Assembly: GCA_019637585.1 (NCBI GenBank)
Contig: JAHBVL010000005.1
Location: 124,001-188,000, forward strand
Length of the DNA stretch: 64,000 nucleotides
Origin: Thermomicrobiales bacterium
GTDB taxonomy: Bacteria; Chloroflexota; Chloroflexia; Thermomicrobiales; UBA6265
Direction: 5' to 3'
Position numbers and translations under genes: made by a program. Positions 2,792-60,695 of this stretch are shown here, one piece after another. The stretch's first letter is position 1. Each line of letters opens with the position of its first letter. Under the pieces are notes generated by a model. That model was given only the letters and a program-made list of their open reading frames with translations, ran no database searches and had not been told where the DNA came from.

Positions 2792-3055
2792 AGCCATCGC
2801 GCTGCTGTCATCCTTTCCAGGTAGTCATTGCCCCTGGCAGCGCGCCCCCCGAATGGCTCCGATCACGGGACAGTCTTCCCGGAGGCGTATGTACGCGGTG
2901 AACTCACCGCCGCGGCGGCATCGTCTCCCCAAACTGTCCTCATCGGGCGGCGAGCTGGAGGCAGCTCGGCCAATTTTGATCGACGTCGTGCTGTTGGCGG
3001 GCGGCATGACAAGAACAATGGCCCCTCCGTCAAAGGGGGAAGTAAGGAAACGGAT
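2792..3055 (+). promoter_or_regulatory. Long leader of nrdJ with potential RNA structure
   Basis: From the predicted start point to the chosen nrdJ ATG is about 264 bases. A 7-base pairing, GGACAGT (2868-2874) with ACTGTCC (2933-2939), could enclose a strong hairpin, GCGGTG-AACT-CACCGC (2895-2910). The nrdJ frame is open through this stretch back to 2828, but the codons there look unlike family sequence. No recognisable cobalamin-riboswitch core (B12 box) was found. A structured leader or an unrecognised N-terminal extension are both possible. Confidence 0.3.
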
Positions 3056-6000
3056 ATGGCGTCCCCGAAACGCACCCGATCGACGAAGACGGCAGTGTCT
3101 CACGGGCTTCCCGTGCAGCGTTACTTCACCAAGGCCGGCGAAAGCCCCTATGCCTCGGTGGAGTGGACGCGACGCACCTCACGAATCACCAACCAGGATG
3201 GGACGACCGTCTTCGAGATGAAGGACGCCGAAGTTCCGTCGTCGTGGTCGCAGGTCGCCACCGACATCATGGTGTCCAAGTATTTCCGGAAAGCAGGTGT
3301 TCCGCAGGTTGCCGATGACGGCGCTCCCCTGCTGGACCATGAGGGCAACCCGGTGCTCGGCCCCGAGCGCTCCGCCCGGCAGGTGATTCACCGGCTGGCT
3401 GGTTGCTGGCGGTACTGGGGCGAAACCCATGGGTATTTCGCTTCGAAGGAAGATGCCCAGGCTTTCTACGATGAGCTCGCCTTCATGCTGGTCAACCAGA
3501 TGGCCGCGCCAAACTCGCCGCAGTGGTTCAACACAGGGCTCCACTGGGCGTACGACATCTCCGGCCCGGCGCAGGGGCACTACTACACTGACCCGGCAAC
3601 TGGCGAAGTCCGCGAATCGACCGATGCGTACAGCCATCCGCAGCCGCACGCCTGCTTCATCCAATCGATCGCCGACGATCTGGTGGCCGAAGGCGGCATC
3701 ATGGACCTCTGGGTCCGCGAAGCGCGTCTCTTTAAATATGGATCTGGCACCGGCACCAACTTCTCGACATTGCGCGGTGAGGGAGAACCCCTCTCCGGCG
3801 GCGGAACCTCGTCTGGTTTGATGAGCTTCCTGCGGGTGGGCGACCGCGCCGCGGGCGCTATCAAGAGCGGCGGCACAACGCGCCGGGCGGCCAAAATGGT
3901 CTGCCTCGATGTCGATCACCCAGACATCGAAGCCTTCGTCACCTGGAAAGCGGACGAGGAAAAGAAGGTCCAGGCGCTCATTGCCGCGGGCTATCCCGCC
4001 GACTTCAACGGCGAGGCGTACCAGACCGTCTCCGGCCAGAACGCCAACAACTCCGTGCGGATCACCAATGACTTCCTGCAGGCCGTCGCCGACGATGCGG
4101 ACTGGAACCTGATTCGCCGGACCGATGGCTCCGTGCATCGCACCGTCCGTGCCCGCGATCTCTGGAATCTCGTTGCCGAGTCGGCCTGGAAGAGCGCCGA
4201 TCCCGGTGTCCAGTACGACACCACGATCAATGAATGGCACACCTGCCCGGAAGGTGGCCGGATCAACGCGTCGAATCCCTGTTCCGAATACATGTTCCTG
4301 GACAATACGGCCTGCAACCTGGCCAGTCTGAATCTGCTCAAGTTCGTGGATATCGAAACCGGTCAGGTCGATATCGAGGGGTATCGCCACGCGGTGCGCC
4401 TCTGGACGATCGTGCTGGAGATCAGCGTGCTGATGGCGCAGTTCCCCAGTCGCGAAATCGCCCGGCTTTCCTATGACTACCGCACGCTGGGACTCGGGTA
4501 TGCCAACATCGGCACCGTGTTGATGCTGCGCGGTCTTCCCTATGATTCAGACGAAGCCCGGGCATTCACCAGTGCGATGACCGCCGTGATGACCGGTGAG
4601 TCGTACGCCACCTCCGCGGAGCTGGCGTCGGTCCTTGGACCGTTCCCCGAGTATCAGGCGAACGCCGAGCACATGAAGCGCGTGATCCGCAATCATCGCC
4701 GGGCGGCCTACGATGCACCCGCCGAAGCGTACGAGCAGCTTTCCGTGCCGCCAATGGGTCTGCGGGCCGATCTGGCGCCTCGAGAACTCGTCGCGGCCGC
4801 TCAGCAATCATGGGATCGCGCACTGGAGCTGGGCGAGACATATGGTTACCGCAACGCCCAGACGACCCTTCTGGCCCCGACCGGCACGATCGGACTGCTC
4901 ATGGACTGCGACACCACCGGTGTCGAACCAGACTTCGCCCTGGTCAAATTCAAGAAGCTGGCCGGCGGCGGCTACTTCAAGATCGCCAATCAAAGTATCG
5001 AACCGGCGCTGAAGAACCTCGGCTACGACAAAGCGCAGCGCAAGGCGATTCTCGACTATGTTCTCGGCACGATGACACTCGACGGCGCTCCAGGCATCAA
5101 CCGGGAAACGCTGAAGAGCAAGGGGTTCGCCGACGCCGACATCGATCGAGTGAACCGGTCGCTGCCGGGTGTTTTCGAGCTGCCGTTCGCCTTCAATGCC
5201 TGGACGCTCGGTGAGGAAGCTCTGGCCCGGGTTGGCATCAGCATGGCGGACGCATCCAGCCCTGGTTTCAATCTGCTCGAACGGCTCGGATTCAGCCGCT
5301 CGGAGATCGACGCGGCCAACGAGCACATCTGCGGCACGATGACAGTCGAAGGCGCTCCCTATCTGAAAGAAGATCACCTGCCGGTGTTCGATACCGCCAA
5401 CAAATGTGGCAAAAAGGGAACCCGCTTCATTCACTACCTCGGCCACGTCAAGATGATGGCCGCCGCCCAGAGTTTCCTCTCCGGCGCCATTTCCAAGACG
5501 ATCAACATGCCGAACGAAGCGACGGTGACGGACATTCTCGATGCCTACGATCAGAGCTGGCACAGTGGGCTGAAAGCGATGGCCATCTATCGCGACGGTT
5601 CCAAACTGAGTCAGCCCCTTTCGACCAAATCGGAAGGATCGGCGGGCGCATCGAAGAGTGACGACGAGATCGAAGCGGAGATCGAGCGACGCGTTGCCGA
5701 GGCGCTCATCGCCGAGCGCGAGCAGGCCGCGGCAGAACGCGACCGCGCCATCGACGAAGCCGTCACCGCGCTGCGTGCCGAACTGGGCGTGCAGCAGCCG
5801 CTCCGCCGCCGCCTCCCGGCTCGCCGCAATGGATTCACCCAGGAAGCGCGCGTGGCCGGACACAAAGTCTTCCTTCGCACCGGCGAGTATGACGATGGTT
5901 CGCTCGGCGAGATCTTCATCGACATGCACAAGGAAGGCGCCGCGTTCCGGTCGATGATCAACTGCTTTGCCATTTCGATTTCGAAGGGCCTCCAGTACGG

Positions 6001-6559
6001 CGTGCCGCTCGACGAGTTCGTCGATACCTTCACCTTCACCCGCTTCGAACCGCAGGGGATGGTTTCCGGTCACCCGAACATCAAGATGGCCACGTCGATC
6101 ATCGACTATGTCTTCCGCGTGCTCGGTCTGGAGTATCTGGACCGCACCGATCTGGCGCAGGTGCCGCCGGAAATGCTGGAATACGACGAGGACGACGCCG
6201 AAGGCTATGCCGAGGAGCCAGTAACACCAGAACTGCCAGCGGCCAGCGCGCCTCCGGCCACACCGGACACCCCACTGGCCACCCAGACGGCAACCGTCGC
6301 GGCTCCCTCAGTGGCAACTACGGTCAGCAATGGACACGGTCATAGCAACGGCACGAACGGGCACAGTAACGGCGCCCTCAAGGAGAGCCTGAAAGCAACA
6401 GCCGCAACCGCGCTCTACGAGCCCACCGGTTCGCTCGACGCCCAGCTCTCCGAGATGATGGGCGACGCACCCTTCTGCGATCAGTGCGGCCACATCACCG
6501 TTCGCAACGGCAGCTGCTATCGATGCCTCAACTGCGGGAATAGTCTGGGCTGTTCGTAG
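3056..6559 (+). CDS. nrdJ: Adenosylcobalamin-dependent class II ribonucleoside-diphosphate reductase
   Basis: Reduces ribonucleotides to deoxyribonucleotides in the cytoplasm using a B12-derived radical, giving oxygen-independent DNA precursor synthesis. Seen: NSPQWFNTGLHW (about residue 151), KYGSGTGTNFSTLRG, and NPCSEY near residue 407 with the conserved active-site cysteine and glutamate. The C-terminal tail from about residue 1141 holds CDQCGH and SCYRCLNCGNSLGCS, the metal-binding/redox CxxC segment of this family. The length of 1167 residues is normal. A Gly/His/Asn-rich linker lies near residue 1090-1110. The ATG at 3056 was chosen because family-like sequence starts there and AAGGA precedes it. 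No class I reductase genes lie nearby. Confidence 0.96.
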   Translation: MASPKRTRSTKTAVSHGLPVQRYFTKAGESPYASVEWTRRTSRITNQDGTTVFEMKDAEVPSSWSQVATDIMVSKYFRKAGVPQVADDGAPLLDHEGNPVLGPERSARQVIHRLAGCWRYWGETHGYFASKEDAQAFYDELAFMLVNQMAAPNSPQWFNTGLHWAYDISGPAQGHYYTDPATGEVRESTDAYSHPQPHACFIQSIADDLVAEGGIMDLWVREARLFKYGSGTGTNFSTLRGEGEPLSGGGTSSGLMSFLRVGDRAAGAIKSGGTTRRAAKMVCLDVDHPDIEAFVTWKADEEKKVQALIAAGYPADFNGEAYQTVSGQNANNSVRITNDFLQAVADDADWNLIRRTDGSVHRTVRARDLWNLVAESAWKSADPGVQYDTTINEWHTCPEGGRINASNPCSEYMFLDNTACNLASLNLLKFVDIETGQVDIEGYRHAVRLWTIVLEISVLMAQFPSREIARLSYDYRTLGLGYANIGTVLMLRGLPYDSDEARAFTSAMTAVMTGESYATSAELASVLGPFPEYQANAEHMKRVIRNHRRAAYDAPAEAYEQLSVPPMGLRADLAPRELVAAAQQSWDRALELGETYGYRNAQTTLLAPTGTIGLLMDCDTTGVEPDFALVKFKKLAGGGYFKIANQSIEPALKNLGYDKAQRKAILDYVLGTMTLDGAPGINRETLKSKGFADADIDRVNRSLPGVFELPFAFNAWTLGEEALARVGISMADASSPGFNLLERLGFSRSEIDAANEHICGTMTVEGAPYLKEDHLPVFDTANKCGKKGTRFIHYLGHVKMMAAAQSFLSGAISKTINMPNEATVTDILDAYDQSWHSGLKAMAIYRDGSKLSQPLSTKSEGSAGASKSDDEIEAEIERRVAEALIAEREQAAAERDRAIDEAVTALRAELGVQQPLRRRLPARRNGFTQEARVAGHKVFLRTGEYDDGSLGEIFIDMHKEGAAFRSMINCFAISISKGLQYGVPLDEFVDTFTFTRFEPQGMVSGHPNIKMATSIIDYVFRVLGLEYLDRTDLAQVPPEMLEYDEDDAEGYAEEPVTPELPAASAPPATPDTPLATQTATVAAPSVATTVSNGHGHSNGTNGHSNGALKESLKATAATALYEPTGSLDAQLSEMMGDAPFCDQCGHITVRNGSCYRCLNCGNSLGCS

Positions 6560-6679: not shown

Positions 6680-6716
6680 CAAACGACAAAGCCGGATGGT
6701 CGAACGACCATCCGGC
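6680..6716 (-). terminator. Rho-independent terminator of the LPATG Tat protein gene
   Basis: GCCGGATGGTCG (6691-6702) pairs perfectly with CGACCATCCGGC (6705-6716). On the minus strand it is followed by a T-rich tract. It lies 24 bases beyond the stop of the 6740-7234 gene and faces the nrdJ terminator. Confidence 0.8.
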
Positions 6717-6739
6717 TCAGTGGTGCTGCGTGGATTCAG

Positions 6740-7234
6740 CTAGTTTGCAGGCTCCTCCGCCTGGTTCCCTTTGCGAAGAAGGAGCGCGGCCGCAGCGGCC
6801 GCGCCACCGACAGCAGCAGCCCCTGCCCAGGTGCTGCCACTGGCTTCCGGACCTGTGCCCGTTGCTGGCAGGACGTCGACCTCTCCACCACCGGTGTCAG
6901 TCTCAGTGACGCAGGTGCCGTTGACGCAAACCATCGACTCATCGCAGCATGGGTACTCGGCGTCGCATTCGTCCTCGACCTCCCAGCACCCTTTCGCGTT
7001 GTCGCACATCGCTTCGAAGCAGGTGTACGAGCCACAACACGGCGTGGCGCCGTCTTCCATCACGCACTCGCCACCCGGCTCGATGCAGATGTCATCCTGA
7101 GCGCCCACGCTTTCGGGAACCAGCGTCACGCCGGTGCCAAGAGCCGCTCCGCCGAGCAACCCCTTCAGAAGTGTGCGCCGGCTCGTTCCGCTGGCCATCG
7201 CTTTGGTCAGACTGTCGAATCGATACCGATCCAT
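6740..7234 (-). CDS. Small Tat-exported cysteine-rich protein with C-terminal LPATG sorting signal
   Basis: 164 residues. The N-terminus MDRYRFDSLTKAMASG is followed by TSRRTLLKGLLGG, a twin-arginine signal, and a hydrophobic stretch ending in ESVGAQ. The mature part has 12 cysteines in CC and CxxxxxC spacings, consistent with a disulfide-rich extracellular domain. The C-terminus is LPATG, then an Ala-rich hydrophobic segment and a charged RKGNQ tail. That is the architecture of a sortase-anchored surface protein. The start ATG 7234 has GGAGGGAATC just upstream; a longer frame reaches 7252. The leader matches those of the two large Cys-rich proteins at 19-27 kb. The function of the Cys-rich part is unknown. 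Confidence 0.8.
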   Translation of the reverse strand: MDRYRFDSLTKAMASGTSRRTLLKGLLGGAALGTGVTLVPESVGAQDDICIEPGGECVMEDGATPCCGSYTCFEAMCDNAKGCWEVEDECDAEYPCCDESMVCVNGTCVTETDTGGGEVDVLPATGTGPEASGSTWAGAAAVGGAAAAAALLLRKGNQAEEPAN

Positions 7235-7397
7235 GATTCCCTCCTCATGCATGTGGGCGCCGCCACCAGCACCCCTCCTTCAATAAACGTCCGGCCGCCA
7301 GGTTGGTTTCATTTGCGACGCTGGTCGACCAGCTGAGGATTCGATAAGCAAGAAACGGGCCGCGGCGCAGCGGGCGGCAGGCAGCCGGCAGCAGGCA

Positions 7398-7667
7398 GTA
7401 GTTCGGGCACCTGTGGCCCGACATCGGCAGTCGGCAGTCGGCAGTCGGCAGTCGGCAGTCGGCAGTCGGCAGTCGGCAGTCGGCAGTCGGCAGTCGGCAG
7501 TCGGCAGTCGGCAGTCGAACAAGGATGTCATCGATCTCCCCGCTTTCTGCGGCGTCCGACTCGACTGATGATGCCGCCCCCGACTACTGCTGGCTCGCTC
7601 GGCGGACTTCGTTCTGCCGGCTGCCAGCCGCTCGCTGCCCGCATCGGGCCACAAGTGCCCGAACTAC
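7398..7667. repeat. REPIN-like inverted pair of GTAG-headed palindromes
   Basis: A 24-base element, GTAGTTCGGGCA...GGCCCGA (7398-7421), recurs in inverted orientation at 7644-7667 with one base difference in the loop. Each can fold on itself as TCGGGC/GCCCGA and has a GTAG head outside the stem, as REP sequences do. The 222 bases between the two arms hold a heptamer tandem array and no gene. Related copies occur at 34346-34361 (half) and 61801-61889 (three in tandem). Confidence 0.7.
7424..7516. repeat. Heptanucleotide tandem repeat (TCGGCAG), about 13 copies
   Basis: An uninterrupted run of TCGGCAG covers 93 bases. The unit length of 7 means all three frames are read in rotation, so the apparent minus-strand peptide (PTADCRL repeated) is an artefact. 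The rest of the 630-base gap between 7235 and 7883 shows no gene. The array is likely to vary in copy number. Confidence 0.9.
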
Positions 7668-19221: not shown

Positions 19222-21495
19222 TCACAGCGTTTGGCAGAATCTCGTGCATCCGAACGGCGATGAGCAGGATGGCAGCGGAATGCAGACTTCTCCGTGGCAA
19301 CAGGTGTCTTCGCTCAAGCAGGATCTGGTCCCGCCTCCCGGAGGATCGGAATAGATACACCCGCCGTTGCCATCGCACCTCACGGTTTGATCGCCACAGA
19401 ACGACGGTGGTTCTATGCAGAGTGGCCGGCTGACATGGGTCGGCCCGCACTGGCCGCTTGCCAGGCAGGTGTTCTTGTATCGGCATTCCTGGAGACTGAT
19501 TCCACAAAGCTCTCCTTCGCCCCGGAATACTCGCTCAGTGCATTCTCCGGCCAAACAGGTAACGGGAGAACATGAAGTGAATCGGTCGCAGACCTTGCCG
19601 TCGGGTTCGTTGAGCAACTCACAGACACCGGACTTGCAGCTTCCGGTGCCCTGTTTGCAGATCGGTGGCAACTGCTGGAATGTGGGAACACATGCTTGAC
19701 CTTCGCGAATCGGTTCGCCTTCGCATCTTCCACTCCGGCAGACCGATGCGCTGCACGGCGACTGGAAGGGGTCAGTACCGCACGCCTGACCTTCCATTTC
19801 AGGAATGGGAACGGCGATGCAGTGACCCTGCTGACACGTTCCGCTGCCAGTGGAGCAGGCGCCAGGCAGGAGCTCGGTGCAGGGAGTTCCATCTGGTCGA
19901 AGAGCTGGAACACAACCACCTGAACCGTCGCATTGCGCGACGAGGCATGCCGGCAGCAGCTGATCGATGATGCACGATTCGCCCGCCGGTTTCGGTACCG
20001 GCGCGCATGCGCCAGAGCCGTCGCACTCGCCGGTGTGACACTGGCCGGCTTCTGATACGGAAATGGAACATGGCGTACCGGCGGAATGGTACGGTTCGAC
20101 ACCGATGCACTGACCAGTCTCCGGGTCACAGGCCCGGGCCGAGCAGAAGGCATTGGAGCTGAGGCATGTAAATCGCTGTGTCCAGGCCGTTGTTGAAAAA
20201 CCCGGATGGCAATGTTCGCAAGCATTGGCGGGATTGATCGTTCCGGTGGTGATGCACGAACCGGCGATGACGCATCCAGCGCAACACGCTCCGTCCAGGC
20301 ACGTGCCGCCGGGGCATGGATCGCCAGTTGGCATATCGCGCATTGCGCAGGATCCATTGACGCAAATGGTCTCCTCACATGGATCAGTGGCCGGAGCGCA
20401 TTGCGACAGATTGCCGGCACAGCACTGCTGGCATGCTCCCGCGCAGCAGACTTCGCCCGATGCACAGTCGCCATCTTCGTCACATTGACAGGTGTTGTCG
20501 ATGCACACGAAACCCGGGGCGCACTGCGTTCCACACGTGCCGCAGTGCTGTTCGTCGTTCGCAACGCATACCTCCCCACAACAGATTCCCGTGTTGCCCT
20601 GGCCACAGGGTTGATCGTCGCCGCGATACTGGTCGTTGATGCAAACGCCGCTTGATGGTTCGCAGCGCTGCGTGTGGCATGCCGGATTGCCGGGGTCGGG
20701 CAGGCATTCCTCGACGGCGTCCAGCACGCAGGCGCCGCTCTGGCAGCTCCACGTTTCGCACTGATCCGACGAACAGGGAGAAGCGTCTGCGCCGCAACAT
20801 TCCTGGCAGGAGCCGTCGCAGCAGAGAGACCCCGAGGGCGATGGGGAGCAGACTTCGCTCAGACCGCACCTGCCCGCAGCACAGACGCCAGTTTGACAGG
20901 TCTCGGGATTGCCGGGGCACTCACTATCGGCGCAGCAATCACCGGGATTCAGGCATGTTCCGTTGCAGCACCGCTGACCTGGACCGTTGCAGCAAACGCC
21001 GCCGCACATCAGCTCCAGAGGACAGCAGGTTTCTTCACCGATGCAGACCGATCCGTCGATACAGCATTCGCGGCCACAGCATTGCTCGGGGGTGGTACAG
21101 CACTCCCGCCCGCACACCTGACCGGGAGATGGGCAACAGACATCCTGATTGCCCGACCGGGCGCAGGTGCCGGCCAGGCAACATCGCGAACCGCAGTTGT
21201 CAGCATCGATACAACAGTCGCCGGTAGAGGTGCATAGACCGGCAGGACAGCAACCCGCGCCACAGAGGGATTGGCCTGACGGACAGGGAGGTGGTGTCGT
21301 GGTTGCCGGTACACTCGGAGGAGGAATCGTGGGACGGGTTCGCTGGGCATTGGCATCGCCAGGCGAAACGGCCGTTCCAGCGACTGCGGCGCCACTGAGA
21401 CCAAGGAATGCTTTGACGACCTGACGCCGTGATGCACCGGACGCCAACGCTCTGGTCAAACGATCGAATCGCTGGCTATCCACATCACCGCCCAT
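19222..21495 (-). CDS. Large Tat-exported cysteine-rich repeat protein
   Basis: 757 residues. The leader QRFDRLTRALASGASRRQVV with an Ala/Gly-rich hydrophobic core is a twin-arginine-type signal. A linker, QRTRPTIPPP, follows. The remainder is almost entirely short cysteine-rich units with recurring CC, CCxGxC and CxxGxC patterns (for example CGRECCIDGSVCIGEETCC), as in disulfide-knotted extracellular proteins. There is no transmembrane segment, LPxTG signal or catalytic motif. It faces a STAND regulator across a 174-base gap. It is paralogous to the interrupted gene at 24130-26703 (same leader, same linker, same CGRECC unit). The start could instead be an internal GTG a few codons later. Role unknown; surface adhesion or matrix is a guess. 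Confidence 0.75.
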   Translation of the reverse strand: MGGDVDSQRFDRLTRALASGASRRQVVKAFLGLSGAAVAGTAVSPGDANAQRTRPTIPPPSVPATTTPPPCPSGQSLCGAGCCPAGLCTSTGDCCIDADNCGSRCCLAGTCARSGNQDVCCPSPGQVCGRECCTTPEQCCGRECCIDGSVCIGEETCCPLELMCGGVCCNGPGQRCCNGTCLNPGDCCADSECPGNPETCQTGVCAAGRCGLSEVCSPSPSGSLCCDGSCQECCGADASPCSSDQCETWSCQSGACVLDAVEECLPDPGNPACHTQRCEPSSGVCINDQYRGDDQPCGQGNTGICCGEVCVANDEQHCGTCGTQCAPGFVCIDNTCQCDEDGDCASGEVCCAGACQQCCAGNLSQCAPATDPCEETICVNGSCAMRDMPTGDPCPGGTCLDGACCAGCVIAGSCITTGTINPANACEHCHPGFSTTAWTQRFTCLSSNAFCSARACDPETGQCIGVEPYHSAGTPCSISVSEAGQCHTGECDGSGACAPVPKPAGESCIIDQLLPACLVAQCDGSGGCVPALRPDGTPCTELLPGACSTGSGTCQQGHCIAVPIPEMEGQACGTDPFQSPCSASVCRSGRCEGEPIREGQACVPTFQQLPPICKQGTGSCKSGVCELLNEPDGKVCDRFTSCSPVTCLAGECTERVFRGEGELCGISLQECRYKNTCLASGQCGPTHVSRPLCIEPPSFCGDQTVRCDGNGGCIYSDPPGGGTRSCLSEDTCCHGEVCIPLPSCSSPFGCTRFCQTL

Positions 21496-24033: not shown

Positions 24034-24615
24034 GCGCGCGTGTCTACGAGGAGAGCTTCGACTGTTCCTTACACCCCCATCGGATTTCCAGATCCCGAAC
24101 CCCCGGACACTGACGACGCGTCATGGCCATCAGCTGTACTTGATTCGCGCTTTGTAGTTCTCCACGACATACGAACCGTTGCCATCGACACGCAAATGGA
24201 AGAGCTGCGTGTCACTGGCCGCCCGGACGCCTCTGATGGTGTGCAGCACCTCATGCATATCCAGCGATGCCGGAGAGGCGCCCAACTTCTGGCGGGCAAG
24301 CCGCACAAAGCTGTTTCGTTCACGGCCGGCCAGCAGATTGTGCGATGCATCCTCGCCGGCGGGGGACATGCCCAGGATGTGATCGATTGTCACGTCTCCA
24401 TGCTCAGCCACAAGCGGCTGCGATCCAGTGACAAAATGGGTCGTTTCGTCGTTGAGGGCATAGAGTGGACGAGCACCGAGAAGCGTTCTATGCACGACAA
24501 GAACCCGATTCGACTCACCAACTCCGCCTCGCACCAAATCGCCGGCGACTATCCGGTCGATCGGTTTCAGCGATCCGTCGGCCATCGTCACCATGGCGCT
24601 GCCGATGAAGCAACC

Positions 24616-24651
24616 CCCTCCTCCTCCTCCTCCTTCTCCTTCTCCTTCTCC
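24616..24651. repeat. CTC/CTT microsatellite encoding the Gly/Glu hinge before the Hint domain
   Basis: Runs of CCT and CTT trinucleotides and CCTTCT hexamers encode alternating Gly-Glu and then poly-Gly just before the Hint cysteine. Copy-number change in multiples of 3 would alter hinge length without a frameshift. Confidence 0.7.
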
Positions 24652-25889
24652 GGGCAGGCTGACTTGCCCGGTCGTTGTCGTCCCCGGCGGAGGCGTCGTG
24701 GGAGGGCTTGTTGTCGTGGTGGGAAGGGTGACGCACTGATCGTTGACGCAAATCTCGGCAGGTCGCTGGCAGACATTTGGTCCACACAGCAAGTCTTTGC
24801 AGTTGAGTCCGCCACCAGCATTGCATTCGTTCGGTGAGCAGACCGCGACGCCACCACAGCACACCATTCCTGACGAGTCAGGGAAACAGGTCCCATGACA
24901 GCAGATCGTTCCCGCACCGCCACAGTGGGTATCGATATTGCACTGACTGCACATGCCCGAATAGCACCAACCCGTGTTTCCATTGCACGGGGTCGCATTC
25001 GTCACATACGGATAGAGGCAGGCGCCATTCCCCTGGCAGATAGCAGCGGCGGTGCACTCATTTCCGTCGTCGGGGCAGAGGTTGGAGAATGGGGCACAGG
25101 CGCCCTGATCGCAGGCCAGGCAACCGGTGCAATCCTGCTTGGGATCCTGCCCGGTGGCGACATACCTGCATCCACCAGTGCCATCCGAGACCTGGCAAGG
25201 CGGACACTCACCGTACGGATCGGTCCCGTCGGCCACCGGTACACACGCTCCCTGACCGTCGCATGTCTTGAGTTCCAGGCACTCGCCCAGTGGGTCGTTG
25301 TTCCCGACGATGAATTCGCATCGCCCCTGCAGATTGCACTGCTGACAGATGCCGCAGTCATGAGCGCTTTGACATTGCGCGGGCGGCGTCTTGGGGACGC
25401 AGGGCCTCTGAATATTGCTGCCGCACATCTGCGTATCGGGACAGCATTTTTCACCGAAACAGTTCAGGTCGCAGCACACGCCCGAAGCGCTGCATGCCAC
25501 GCCGGCGGCGCAGATGGTGTCTCCGCCGCAGCACAGATTGGCGCCGCCGCCAGGTAGGCATTGAGAGCCACAGCAGCCGGCTCCTCCGGCGGTCGGGCAA
25601 CACGTCCCCTCGCAACACTGCTGCCCCAGTCCACAACTCAGTCCATAGCAGCCGGCGCACTCCCCGTCGACACAATATCCACTGTCGTTCACGCCGCATC
25701 GTGTGCCATTCGGTGCCTGTACGGCGCGACACTGGCCATTGGTCGTGTCACAGATGGCGCGCTCACAGATGCCGACCTGCGTGCCAGAGCAGTCCTTGTT
25801 CCGCTCCCGGCAGACGGCGCCGTCACACCAGGCCTCCCGGCAGAGGGTCGACGGCGCCGGACAGCCGGAGAGATCGCTGACCGTGCACT

Positions 25890-26150
25890 CCGGAGCAGGC
25901 GTCGTTGTGGTGGTCGACGTGGTGGTTGTTGTAGTCGATGTGGTCGTGGATGTGGTTGTGGTGGTAGTGGGCCCCTGAGTCGTGGACGTTGTCGTCGAGG
26001 TGGTCGTCGTGGGCGCCTGAGTCGTGGACGTTGTCGTCGAGGTAGTGGTCGTGGGCTCCTGGGTGGTCGAGGTCGTAGTCGATGTCGTCGTGCTGGTGGT
26101 GGTGGTGGTGGTCGATGTCGTCGTGGGAGCACTGGTAGTCGTGGTCGCTA
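25890..26150. repeat. Degenerate tandem repeats encoding a Thr/Ser mucin-like tract
   Basis: Units of about 42 bases (for example GTCGTGGACGTTGTCGTCGA followed by a GGTGGTCGTCGTGGG-type segment) recur at 25978-26060 and in shorter forms on either side. On the minus strand they encode TTTTSTTTSTTQxP repeats. Such tracts are commonly extended, glycosylated stalks in surface proteins. Confidence 0.8.
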
Positions 26151-26908
26151 CACAACCAGCGCCGGAACAGATTTCGTTCTCGTCACAGGCGTCGCCGCAG
26201 GCCAGGCAGTCGACGACAGTGCCCAATAATGTGCAGCCATGGTCGCAGCAAACCTGACCGGGTCCGTTACAGCAGGTTCCTCCGCATTACTGGTCGATCC
26301 AGCAGCATCGTTCTTCACCGACGCAGAGAGCGCCGTCGGGACAACACTCCCTGCCACAACACTGGTCGGCGGACGCACAGCACTCATAGCCGCACACGGT
26401 CCGGCCGGCGGCGCAGCACCGGCCCTGTGCCGTGCATTGCCCGTCGCAGCAGCCATCGATGCTGCATCTCGCCATGCCTGGGCAGGGATTGGGAGGTGAT
26501 GTGGTTGGCGCCGGCGTTGTGGTTGCTGGTGGCGGAGGAGGGGGTGGAATCGTGGGTCTGGTGCGCTGTTCGCGGGCATCTGACTCCAATGCCTCAGATG
26601 CCGTGACGACGGCTCCGATCCCGATGATCCCCTTGAGCAGCCGCCGGCGCGAGGCGCCTGAAGCGAGCGAGCGGACGAGATCGTCGAATCGCGAGCTATC
26701 CATCGGTGACGTCCTTTCGGGCCCGCATGCGCCGGCAGGCTGGATGTGTCCAGACGCGGTACTGGAAGACTGCCTCCGAACGTATTGGTTTATGATTTGG
26801 AGGAAAAGGAAGCCAGGAGGAAATCTGGAGGAAATTCCCAAGCCGTGTCCTGCGTGGACGCCTTCGGAAGCGATTCCGGCGTTTTCGCGTTGATCCGGCA
26901 ACGACGGC

Positions 26909-29271
26909 ATGGATCAGTCATCGCACCAGCCATTTGGATCTGAGCTTCGCCGGCTCCGCCAGCGGAAGGGATTGACCCAAGAGAGCTTGCGGGACGATCG
27001 GGCGTCACGGCCCGAACGATTCGCATGCTCGAAGCCGGCCAAACGGCATCTCCCCGCTTTTCCACGATTCGTCTGCTGGCTGATGCGCTCCAATTGAATG
27101 AGGCCGACCAGCGGCCTCTCCTGCAGAATTCACGTCCCCAACCCGGGGATGGGCCAGAGACGTCAGCCCACGGCCCCGGGTTGTCACCCCCATTCCCGCC
27201 GTCACTCCCGGCGCCATTGACGTCGTTCGTGGGCCGGGAGCAGGTCATCCTGGAGATTTCCGCCCAGCTCACCTCACCAAATGTGCGGATCCTGACCCTG
27301 CTTGGGCCAGGCGGCATTGGCAAAACCCGGTTGGCGCGGGAAGTGGCTCGCCGGCTGGCTCCGGCGTTCCCGGATGGCGTGATCTGCGTTTTCCTGGAGT
27401 CGGTTGCCGACAACGATCTGGTCATTCCGGCATTGGCCGAGTCGCTCCAGATGTCGCCTCGCCTGAAGAATGGACGTATCGAGTCGATCGCGGAGCTGAT
27501 CGGCGACCGGTCGATGCTCATCCTGATGGACAACATGGAGCAGGTCCTCGGCGCGGCTCCCGCCCTGCCTGGACTCTTGCGGCAATGCCCATCCTTGCGA
27601 CTGCTCGTGACGTCACGAGTGCCGCTGAACATCTCCGGCGAACACCGTTGGCCCGTTAGCCCCCTCACCCTTCCACAACGAGCGAACGACTCCCGGCCAA
27701 GCGGCACCACCCCAAGCGAAGCTGAGCTGCTTTTTGAGCAGCGGGCGAAAGCAGTCGATCCCGACTTCACACTGGACGAGGAGCGAGCCGGTCACGTTGC
27801 GACGATCTGCCAGCGGCTGGATGGTTTGCCGCTGGCGATCGAGCTGGCAGCCGGCCGGCTGGGGGAAGTGTCGGTTGCCGCGCTTGCCCAGGAAACGAGT
27901 CTTCTCGAGCATCTGATCGATGGTCCGGACGATCTGCCCGACCGGCTTCGGACGATGGAAAGCTCGCTCGATTGGGGCTACCGGCAGCTCTCCCCCCAGG
28001 AGCAGCAGCTTTTTCGCCGGATATCGGTGTTTCGGAATGGTTTCGAGCTTTCGTCGGTCGTCGATTTGACGAACCAATGTGGAGAAGATCCGGCTCCCGT
28101 TTCACGGATGCTGACCGACCTGAAGCATCGCAGCATGCTGTCGATCGATACCAAAGAGCCCTCGACGCGATACCGCCTCCTCGAGGTGGTTCGCGAGTTC
28201 GGCATGCACCTGTTGCGGACCAACGGAGAGGAGCTGGCAACGGAGGAGGCGCACGCGCGCGTCTTTCTGGCCCTCGCCGATTCGCATGAACGGCACGCCT
28301 GGATACCAGTTCCCGGTGTGCATGAGCGATTGCTCGCGGAGCTCCCGAATGTTCGGGCGGCGCTGCTCCACTTTGAACAAACCGGACAACGCGAGGCGAT
28401 GCTCCGGTTGGCGGGCGCGCTACGATGGGTGTGGACGTCCAGAATCGACATCGGCGAAGGAGCGCGGTGGATCGACCGGGCCCTGGCTATCGACGCCGGG
28501 TCCTCACCAGAAGCGGACGCGCGAGCCCTGCTCACGGTCGCCCAGATTCGCTATCTGCTCGGCGACGAAGCGGCAGCGCTCCCACTCTTCGAGCGCGCGC
28601 TGGCCATATCGCTGAGCGCCAGGGATTGGTTCCAGGCCGCGTTCGCCAGCTCCGCGCTCGGCGCCGTGCATGTCGGTCTCGGAAGTCTCGATACGGCGAA
28701 GCGGTTCGGAACGCAGTCGCTCGAGCTCACACAGCGGATGACCGATCGGGAGCTGGCCAGCGCGGTCGATACATCGACACTGGGCACACTGGGACGAGCC
28801 GAACATGGGCTGGGCAATCTCGACCTGGGCGAAGCGCATCTGACGCTCGCCGCCAGCCAGTTCGAAGCGCGCGGTATGGCCCAGGGGGTGGCACGCGTCT
28901 CCCAGGCGCTGGGAACCATTGCGTACGAGCAATCGGATTTCCTGCTGGCGCTCCGGCGCTACCAGCGGAGCATGGCCTGTGCCGTGGAGAGCGATGATGT
29001 TCGGGTGGTCAGTCTCGATCTGACATTGATCGCCGCCACCCTGGCGGCTCTGGGCGAAGGGCGGCGGGGGGCCCGGCTGCTTGGAGCCGCCGCGACACTC
29101 GACGAGATCGTCGGAGCGCCGGTTGCCTACTCGGAAATAGACCGGGCGATTTGCGGTGACGCGCACGAACAGGTGGCCAGCAGTCTGGATATGAACTGCC
29201 TGGAAGTGGAACTGTCGATCGGCGCCAGTCTGACGTTCGACGAGGCAGTGGCCGAAGCGCTCGAAAAATGA
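26909..29271 (+). pseudogene. HTH-STAND regulator with a single-base frameshift in its DNA-binding domain
   Basis: The frame from ATG 26909 encodes SELRRLRQRKGLTQES and then runs out of phase. The frame that continues to 29271 encodes ELAGRSGVTARTIRMLEAG, exactly the missing rest of the XRE helix-turn-helix. The joint lies at about 26981-26986, where GAGAGC stands in place of an expected GAGGAGC, so one G is lost. Downstream are Walker A LGPGGIGKTR, Walker B MLILMDNMEQ, LVTSRVPLNI, GLPLAIELAA and a TPR region. Translation from ATG 27025 would give 748 residues lacking the recognition helices. It is paralogous to 21670-24033. A sequencing error is possible. Confidence 0.75.
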
Positions 29272-60530: not shown

Positions 60531-60563
60531 GGGGGGCAATGGGCAAAAGGCAAAGGTGACCGG

Positions 60564-60605
60564 GGCACTGGGCACTGGGCACTGGGCACTGGGCACTGGG
60601 CACTG
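60564..60605. repeat. Heptanucleotide tandem repeat (GGCACTG), six copies, between rpmH and rnpA
   Basis: Six uninterrupted copies occupy part of the 165-base spacer between the rnpA start and the rpmH stop. C/T-rich TTTTGCC repeats follow at 60653-60690. Same unit length as the array at 7424-7516 but a different sequence. Confidence 0.85.
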
Positions 60606-60695
60606 GAAAAGAATCGTCCATCACCCGGAGCGCCGCCACTCGCGCCCCTACTTTTGCCCTTTGCCTACTGCCTTTTGCCTTTTGCCTTTGTTCGC

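Follow-up and report, generated by a model that had tools for sequence, protein, structure and literature searches.

How a small cysteine-rich protein of a Thermomicrobiales bacterium leaves the cell, and what holds it at the surface afterwards, is the question raised by one gene in a 64,000-nucleotide stretch of DNA (hereafter the window). Its product carries on a single short chain both a leader of the twin-arginine (Tat) type and a C-terminal LPATG sorting signal. Here we report that this protein, judged from its own sequence and that of its relatives, is quite likely a Tat-exported sortase substrate, and that in Thermomicrobiales the form of the sorting tail goes with the export route. The latter observation is new; the combination of Tat leader and LPxTG is in itself not new, having been published for Actinobacteria.

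The gene, P0001, is the minus-strand open reading frame 6740-7234, translated as 164 amino acids with the stop codon included in the coordinates. A longer frame would begin at an ATG at 7252, and the ATG at 7234 is preferred because it is preceded by GAGGAGG. The chain brings together three elements: a twin-arginine leader, two knottin-like units that hold 12 cysteines in all, and LPATG followed by a helix and a tail. A preliminary description of this DNA had already pointed to a Tat leader and LPATG on the same small Cys-rich protein, and the translation, with its SRRTLLK, 12 cysteines, LPATG and helix, bears it out.

The leader spans residues 1-45 (7100-7234, minus strand, as for all features of the protein) and consists of a long n-region, the motif SRRTLLK (residues 18-24; 7163-7183) and a mild Gly/Ala-rich h-region, GLLGGAALGTGVTLV; it ends in VGA before QDD, this cleavage site (VGA|Q) being placed by eye from the sequence and from paralogous leaders. 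The first cysteine unit, C-x6-C-x8-CC-x4-C-x4-C, covers residues 50-77 (7004-7087) and the second, C-x6-C-x5-CC-x5-C-x4-C, residues 83-108 (6911-6988). Among 20000 shuffled versions of the stretch only 2 yield two such C-C-CC-C-C units, a spacing which we take to be the definition of a knottin-like (ICK) unit; the knottin label is given by spacing alone. LPATG itself (residues 122-126; 6857-6871), seen in the translation and in two family alignments and followed by TG, lies together with the hydrophobic helix within about 50 residues of the chain end. The helix, at about residues 135-153 (6776-6832), is Ala-rich and weakly hydrophobic, both by its sequence and in the set comparison described below. 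It is followed by the 11-residue tail RKGNQAEEPAN (6743-6775), in which RK adjoins the helix; this tail had been described as basic, a label that does not hold, for its charges are R, K, E and E, net zero, and two of its residues are acidic.

Just downstream of the gene lies a terminator-like hairpin of 13 pairs with a 4-nt loop (6689-6718, minus strand; fold z -5.09 versus shuffles). Its left neighbour, on the opposite strand at 2828-6559, is a ribonucleotide reductase, named by eye, which among the best 80 of 592 matches is nearest to those of two Thermomicrobiales MAGs (71% full length, 73% partial). Upstream of the gene, at 7424-7517, the window holds a perfect heptamer tandem repeat, (TCGGCAG) x13.4, and a second one, (GGGCACT) x6.3, is found at 60563-60606.

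Public profiles recognize these elements faintly. On the focal protein the Pfam TAT_signal model PF10518 scores 15.4 bits, under its cut-off of 22.7, and TIGR01409 scores 13.5 bits, under 16.7. Gram_pos_anchor (PF00746) reaches 16.8 bits on the protein alone, against a cut-off of 20, then 20 bits at the focal gene in a genome scan with neighbours in frame, and 21 bits on the paralogue L090. The same faintness marks the family, in which matches at E<=0.1 are found in 5 of 24 members for TAT_signal, 4 of 24 for Gram_pos_anchor, 3 of 24 for LPXTG_anchor and 2 of 24 for TIGR01409. Across the 24 Tat-led LPxTG proteins, R19, R20, P123, T125 and G126 (focal numbering) are invariant, RR and LPxTG having in part been selection criteria. 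A chance occurrence of LPATG in the focal protein is ruled out, as paralogues show the motif too, together with the TG after it, a helix and a tail. A single-sequence structure model came out at pLDDT 47, too low to be of use for the fold, and no solved structure related to the focal protein was found at E below 0.8.

The host genome (3.94 Mb) has the machinery that such a protein would use. The preliminary description saw no sortase in the window, and indeed PF04203 matches nothing there; the search of the whole genome for which it called returned five PF04203 sortases over cut-off, all outside the window, and one TatC (E 1e-56). It had named class E or other sortases as the thing to look for: sortases are present, but for all five the best model is of class F rather than E (NCBIfam NF033748), at 77.9-87.1 bits and thus under the class cut-off of 166. 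A search of the genome with the focal protein gave 25 matches spread over 22 genes, three of which were hit twice, and most of these 22 genes combine an RFDxLxRxL...SRRxxLK leader with Cys-rich bodies. Further LPxTG tails on Tat proteins, also called for, were found by tail profile and reading of the frames: nine host Tat-led proteins end in LPxTG[STA]G, eight of them in addition to the focal one (C1:422712, C1:428368, C1:578498, C1:580399, C1:656811, C2:38995, C29:84115 and C29:110366). Neither of the two outcomes that the preliminary description had named as refuting it, a genome devoid of sortase genes or homologues without LPxTG at this position, was thus encountered. The idea of a dedicated sortase beside each gene was rejected, only one of the nine lying near any of the five sortases.

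Some of the sortases themselves have an unusual build. Two in the host, L086:3694-6468 (+) and L094:1597-6846 (+), are fused to SpaA/prealbumin-like domains, and between these domains and the sortase domain sits YPNTGVGP, as if the enzyme bore its own substrate; one of the two is near a Tat-led LPNTG gene, and YPNTGV is also found in L175, from another genus. Shorter sortases (L002, L004, L144 and L157) have directly before the catalytic domain a linker such as GEMPTTGGLRPGP, which resembles a sorting motif and could possibly act as a lid or pseudosubstrate. The linker has the variants PSSGA, PTSGG and PSTGV, and variant forms are seen in the sortases L145, L146, L148 and L155.

The leader family also extends beyond the anchored proteins. 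In the window, a 757-aa Cys-rich protein (19222-21495, minus strand) has the same leader type and no LPxTG at its end, and the family probably includes both anchored and released members, to go by these leaders and chain ends. Also on the minus strand, a Tat-led Cys-rich frame at 26287-26910 precedes a long frame, likewise Cys-rich and with Thr repeats, at 24130-26226, whose C-terminus we take by eye to be a Hint (Hedgehog/intein-like) domain. The region 24130-26910 may perhaps be one gene split by a change of frame.

We asked how tails and export routes are distributed over the order, using a profile (A1) built from seven tails. Run over 61 Thermomicrobiales genomes, it found a match at E<=0.01 in 26, and the proteins were classed as Tat- or Sec-led by the N-terminus of the frames as read, giving 24 Tat-led proteins in 10 genomes and 34 Sec-led proteins in 13 genomes. 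The full set has 82 rows, from which we excluded 24 whose start or class could not be read (a tail of nine or more residues with two or more acidic ones occurs in one of these). Spurious frames were dropped before counting (L027, 63 aa; L038, 79 aa; L101, 70 aa; L131, 89 aa), and A1 matches without a sorting signal, such as L074, L077, L079, L081 and L082, were left uncounted, as was L099, a Tat-led LPATG protein with a very long end, perhaps from a frame error, that failed the length rule. A few calls were made by hand: L089 (183 aa) as Tat, with a Met after the first hydrophobic stretch, and L101 (1102 aa) and L128 (954 aa) as Sec, with RR before the Met; L078 was ambiguous.

The two groups differ sharply at the chain end. 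A tail of at least nine residues with at least two acidic ones is found in 23 of 24 Tat-led and 1 of 34 Sec-led proteins, in data that are partly the same as those in which the pattern was first spotted; without the seven proteins used to build the profile the counts are 16 of 17 versus 1 of 34. Median tail length is 14 in the Tat-led and 6 in the Sec-led proteins, at least one acidic residue is present in 23/24 versus 6/34, and median net charge is 0.5 versus +3, while the median number of basic residues is 3 in both. The one Tat-led exception, L066, ends in a basic tail devoid of acidic residues. Thus the C-terminal signal in this order is of two kinds, a Tat-led one with a tail of about 14 residues that contains acid, and a Sec-led one of about 6 residues that is mostly basic. 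The helices differ as well: over their last 20 residues the median share of LIVFMW is 0.275 in Tat-led versus 0.50 in Sec-led proteins, and the alanine share is 0.40 versus 0.25. In all seven genera holding both types the Tat type has the lower helix share and the longer tail, and in six of the seven also the lower net charge, the remaining genus (a single protein per type) showing equal charge. Glycine two residues past LPxTG is common to both (23/24 Tat-led, 34/34 Sec-led), a residue that the A1 profile favours. Bodies with at least 4% cysteine are confined to the Tat-led group (18/24 versus 0/34).

Two further sets serve as partial controls. A PF00746 scan of the same genomes gave five hits already in the Tat-led set (three in the host, and the genes of L108 and L064), all with a long tail containing acidic residues. 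Forty further regions comprised 12 in which LPxTG goes with a clear Sec leader (judged by eye), nine with LPxTG whose start was unclear (L310, L312, L313, L314, L316, L326, L329, L333 and L335), and 19 with no sorting signal at the match. Tails of the 12 Sec-led proteins are 3-8 residues long and only two of them have an acidic residue; none of the 21 LPxTG regions, nine of which lack a readable start, showed a Tat leader combined with a Sec-type tail. When the Sec-led proteins are pooled, 6 of 46 have a LIVFMW helix share of 0.35 or less. Three Sec-led LPxTG proteins, L320, L331 and L332, combine Ala-rich weak helices with a tail of just RRR and are exceptions to the helix difference.

The second set started from a ferritin-like Tat protein. 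Ferritin_2 is matched by two proteins of the Tat-led 24 (best E 7.5e-37); this domain binds metal in known relatives, and metal binding is a standard reason for the use of Tat. A search of 158 genomes of the class found matches in 28, and of 30 loci read, seven have PxTG or PxSG close to the C-terminus, among them the query and one locus truncated by the contig end. Five new members (L349, L350, L351, L352 and L359, of which L350 and L351 are closely similar) start with SRR leaders, and their tails have 14-17 residues, 1-4 of them acidic; in L178, from outside the order, the tail is 11 residues long and two are acidic. Ferritin-like Tat proteins that end in PxTG/PxSG tails (these six and L348) are present in several genomes of the class, and by their sequences are candidates for sortase-displayed metal-bearing domains. 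In the six members measured the LIVFMW helix share is 0.35-0.55, above the median of the main Tat set. With these values and the low shares in Sec-led PF00746 proteins, we rejected the idea that a weak helix marks the Tat type in general.

What, then, could the focal protein be if not a Tat-exported sortase substrate? It might be exported by Sec, the usual route of sortase substrates, with the paired arginines in its leader an accident; the Tat models do stay under their cut-offs on it, but an SRRxLLK-type motif ahead of a mild Gly/Ala-rich stretch is shared by more than 12 further host genes, on which the sorting tail was not found, and the four host Sec-led LPxTG proteins classed (L054, L091, L096 and L097) have Leu/Val-rich leaders with no RR motif by the rule used, so that we consider this reading very improbable. 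Unlikely too, if less so, is a Tat-exported tail-anchored membrane protein whose helix is a permanent anchor and whose LPxTG is uncut or rarely cut. Tat substrates held in the membrane by a C-terminal anchor are an established class (PMC10924467); helix and tail would suffice for such an anchor, and the tail is unlike the usual short basic one. Yet LPxTG and the glycine two residues on recur in nine host proteins and in other genera despite variable linkers and helices, the motif would be superfluous in a plain anchor (an argument that is partly circular, the searches having favoured the motif), and sortases are near universal in the order, with PF04203 present in 58 of 61 genomes, the host counted.

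A different alternative concerns the tails, and is compatible with Tat export and sortase anchoring of the focal protein: their difference may reflect descent or composition and not function, which we regard as possible, if doubtful. Many Tat-led members share an RFDxLxRxL leader, the ferritin-like family does not show the helix difference, and Tat-led bodies are slightly more acidic than Sec-led ones (D+E 0.157 versus 0.129, p 0.011, p-values being indicative only among related sequences), with a Spearman correlation of 0.44 between body and tail acidity. Against it, tails of the same kind are found on other leaders and bodies (ferritin-like, and of DLIDGY/ELTDAY type), and tails differ far more than bodies do, with a median D+E of 0.194 in Tat-led versus 0 in Sec-led tails. 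Compositional bias of the whole protein, though not nil, was rejected as too small to account for the acidic tails.

Tat export followed by sortase anchoring, our preferred reading, would proceed as follows. The Cys-rich domain would fold in the cytoplasm and the leader would bring it, folded, to Tat; Tat would export the domain while the C-terminal helix remained as a temporary membrane anchor; and a class-F-like sortase would then cut LPATG between T and G and join the domain to the envelope. Disulfides would need to form in the reducing cytoplasm or be dispensable there, so that before export the cysteines may undergo cytoplasmic oxidation or bind metal, or else Tat may export a loosely folded hydrophilic chain. 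As LPxTGxG is common to both types, the tail difference is probably set by the translocase and not by a different sortase. In the family with Cys-rich leader proteins, the weaker Ala-rich helix would escape Sec.

More broadly, we tentatively propose that the Thermomicrobiales sorting signal encodes the export route: the Tat-type helix and long acidic tail would avoid Sec and insertases until Tat has exported the folded domain, and the same sortases would process both types. The Tat-type signal would comprise LPxTGxG, a long acidic tail, and a helix, weak in the case of the Cys-rich family. Work on other proteins shows that Sec lets go of a Tat-dependent helix when its hydrophobicity is low (PMC5449189); the weakly hydrophobic helices in the main set agree with this idea, and those of the ferritin-like proteins agree with it less. 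The same paper reports no effect of altering the negatively charged residues of a cytoplasmic loop, which lends no support to a role for the acidic tail, and a function for it is a conjecture.

Several known systems resemble parts of this one. Classical Sec LPXTG proteins (Gram_pos_anchor PF00746, LPXTG_anchor TIGR01167) share LPxTG, helix, tail and genomic sortases, whereas here there are a Tat leader and a longer acidic tail, and the focal score alone is under the cut-off. Haloarchaeal archaeosortase (PGF-CTERM) substrates also combine Tat export with C-terminal sorting, by an unrelated enzyme and motif and with lipid anchoring. Sec-Tat membrane proteins (actinobacterial Rieske and others; PMC5449189) have a weak helix placed by Tat, as in the main set and the focal protein, but are multi-span proteins that stay in the membrane for good and carry positive charges at the C-terminus, in contrast to the single helix, sortase motif and acidic tail residues seen here.

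The closest parallel is actinobacterial. Actinobacteria provided the first natural examples of Tat-dependent sortase substrates, described in 2024, and these tail-anchored proteins (the SCO1860 family, HtaA-LPXTG and others) likewise join a twin-arginine leader to LPxTG/LAxTG, helix and tail (PMC10924467). Here the phylum is another, the bodies are Cys-rich or ferritin-like, the tails are long and acidic and not Arg-rich, the motif is LPxTGxG and the sortases are class-F-like. In eight actinobacterial Tat candidates the helix LIVFMW share is 0.30-0.45, and the tails are Arg-rich, with any acid in three of the eight; because of these Arg-rich tails we view the acidic tail as a lineage feature and not a general need of Tat. 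The earlier suggestion that a folded Cys-rich domain passes through Tat and is then anchored by a sortase still gives the best reading, while Tat-dependent sortase substrates can no longer be called unprecedented (PMC10924467). "Chloroflex" has 0 occurrences in the main text of PMC10924467, and by titles and abstract openings the open-licence literature on sortases in Chloroflexi or Thermomicrobia, and on Tat with sorting signals or charged tails, showed nothing on this topic.

Putative Tat-led sortase substrates thus form a large family in Chloroflexota, enriched in Cys-rich and ferritin-like domains, and the nature of these domains offers a plausible reason for folding ahead of export. The tail rule bears on how one membrane picks Sec or Tat for placing a C-terminal helix. 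If the proposal is true, these bacteria would have a large specialised pathway for displaying pre-folded disulfide- or metal-bearing domains on their surface.
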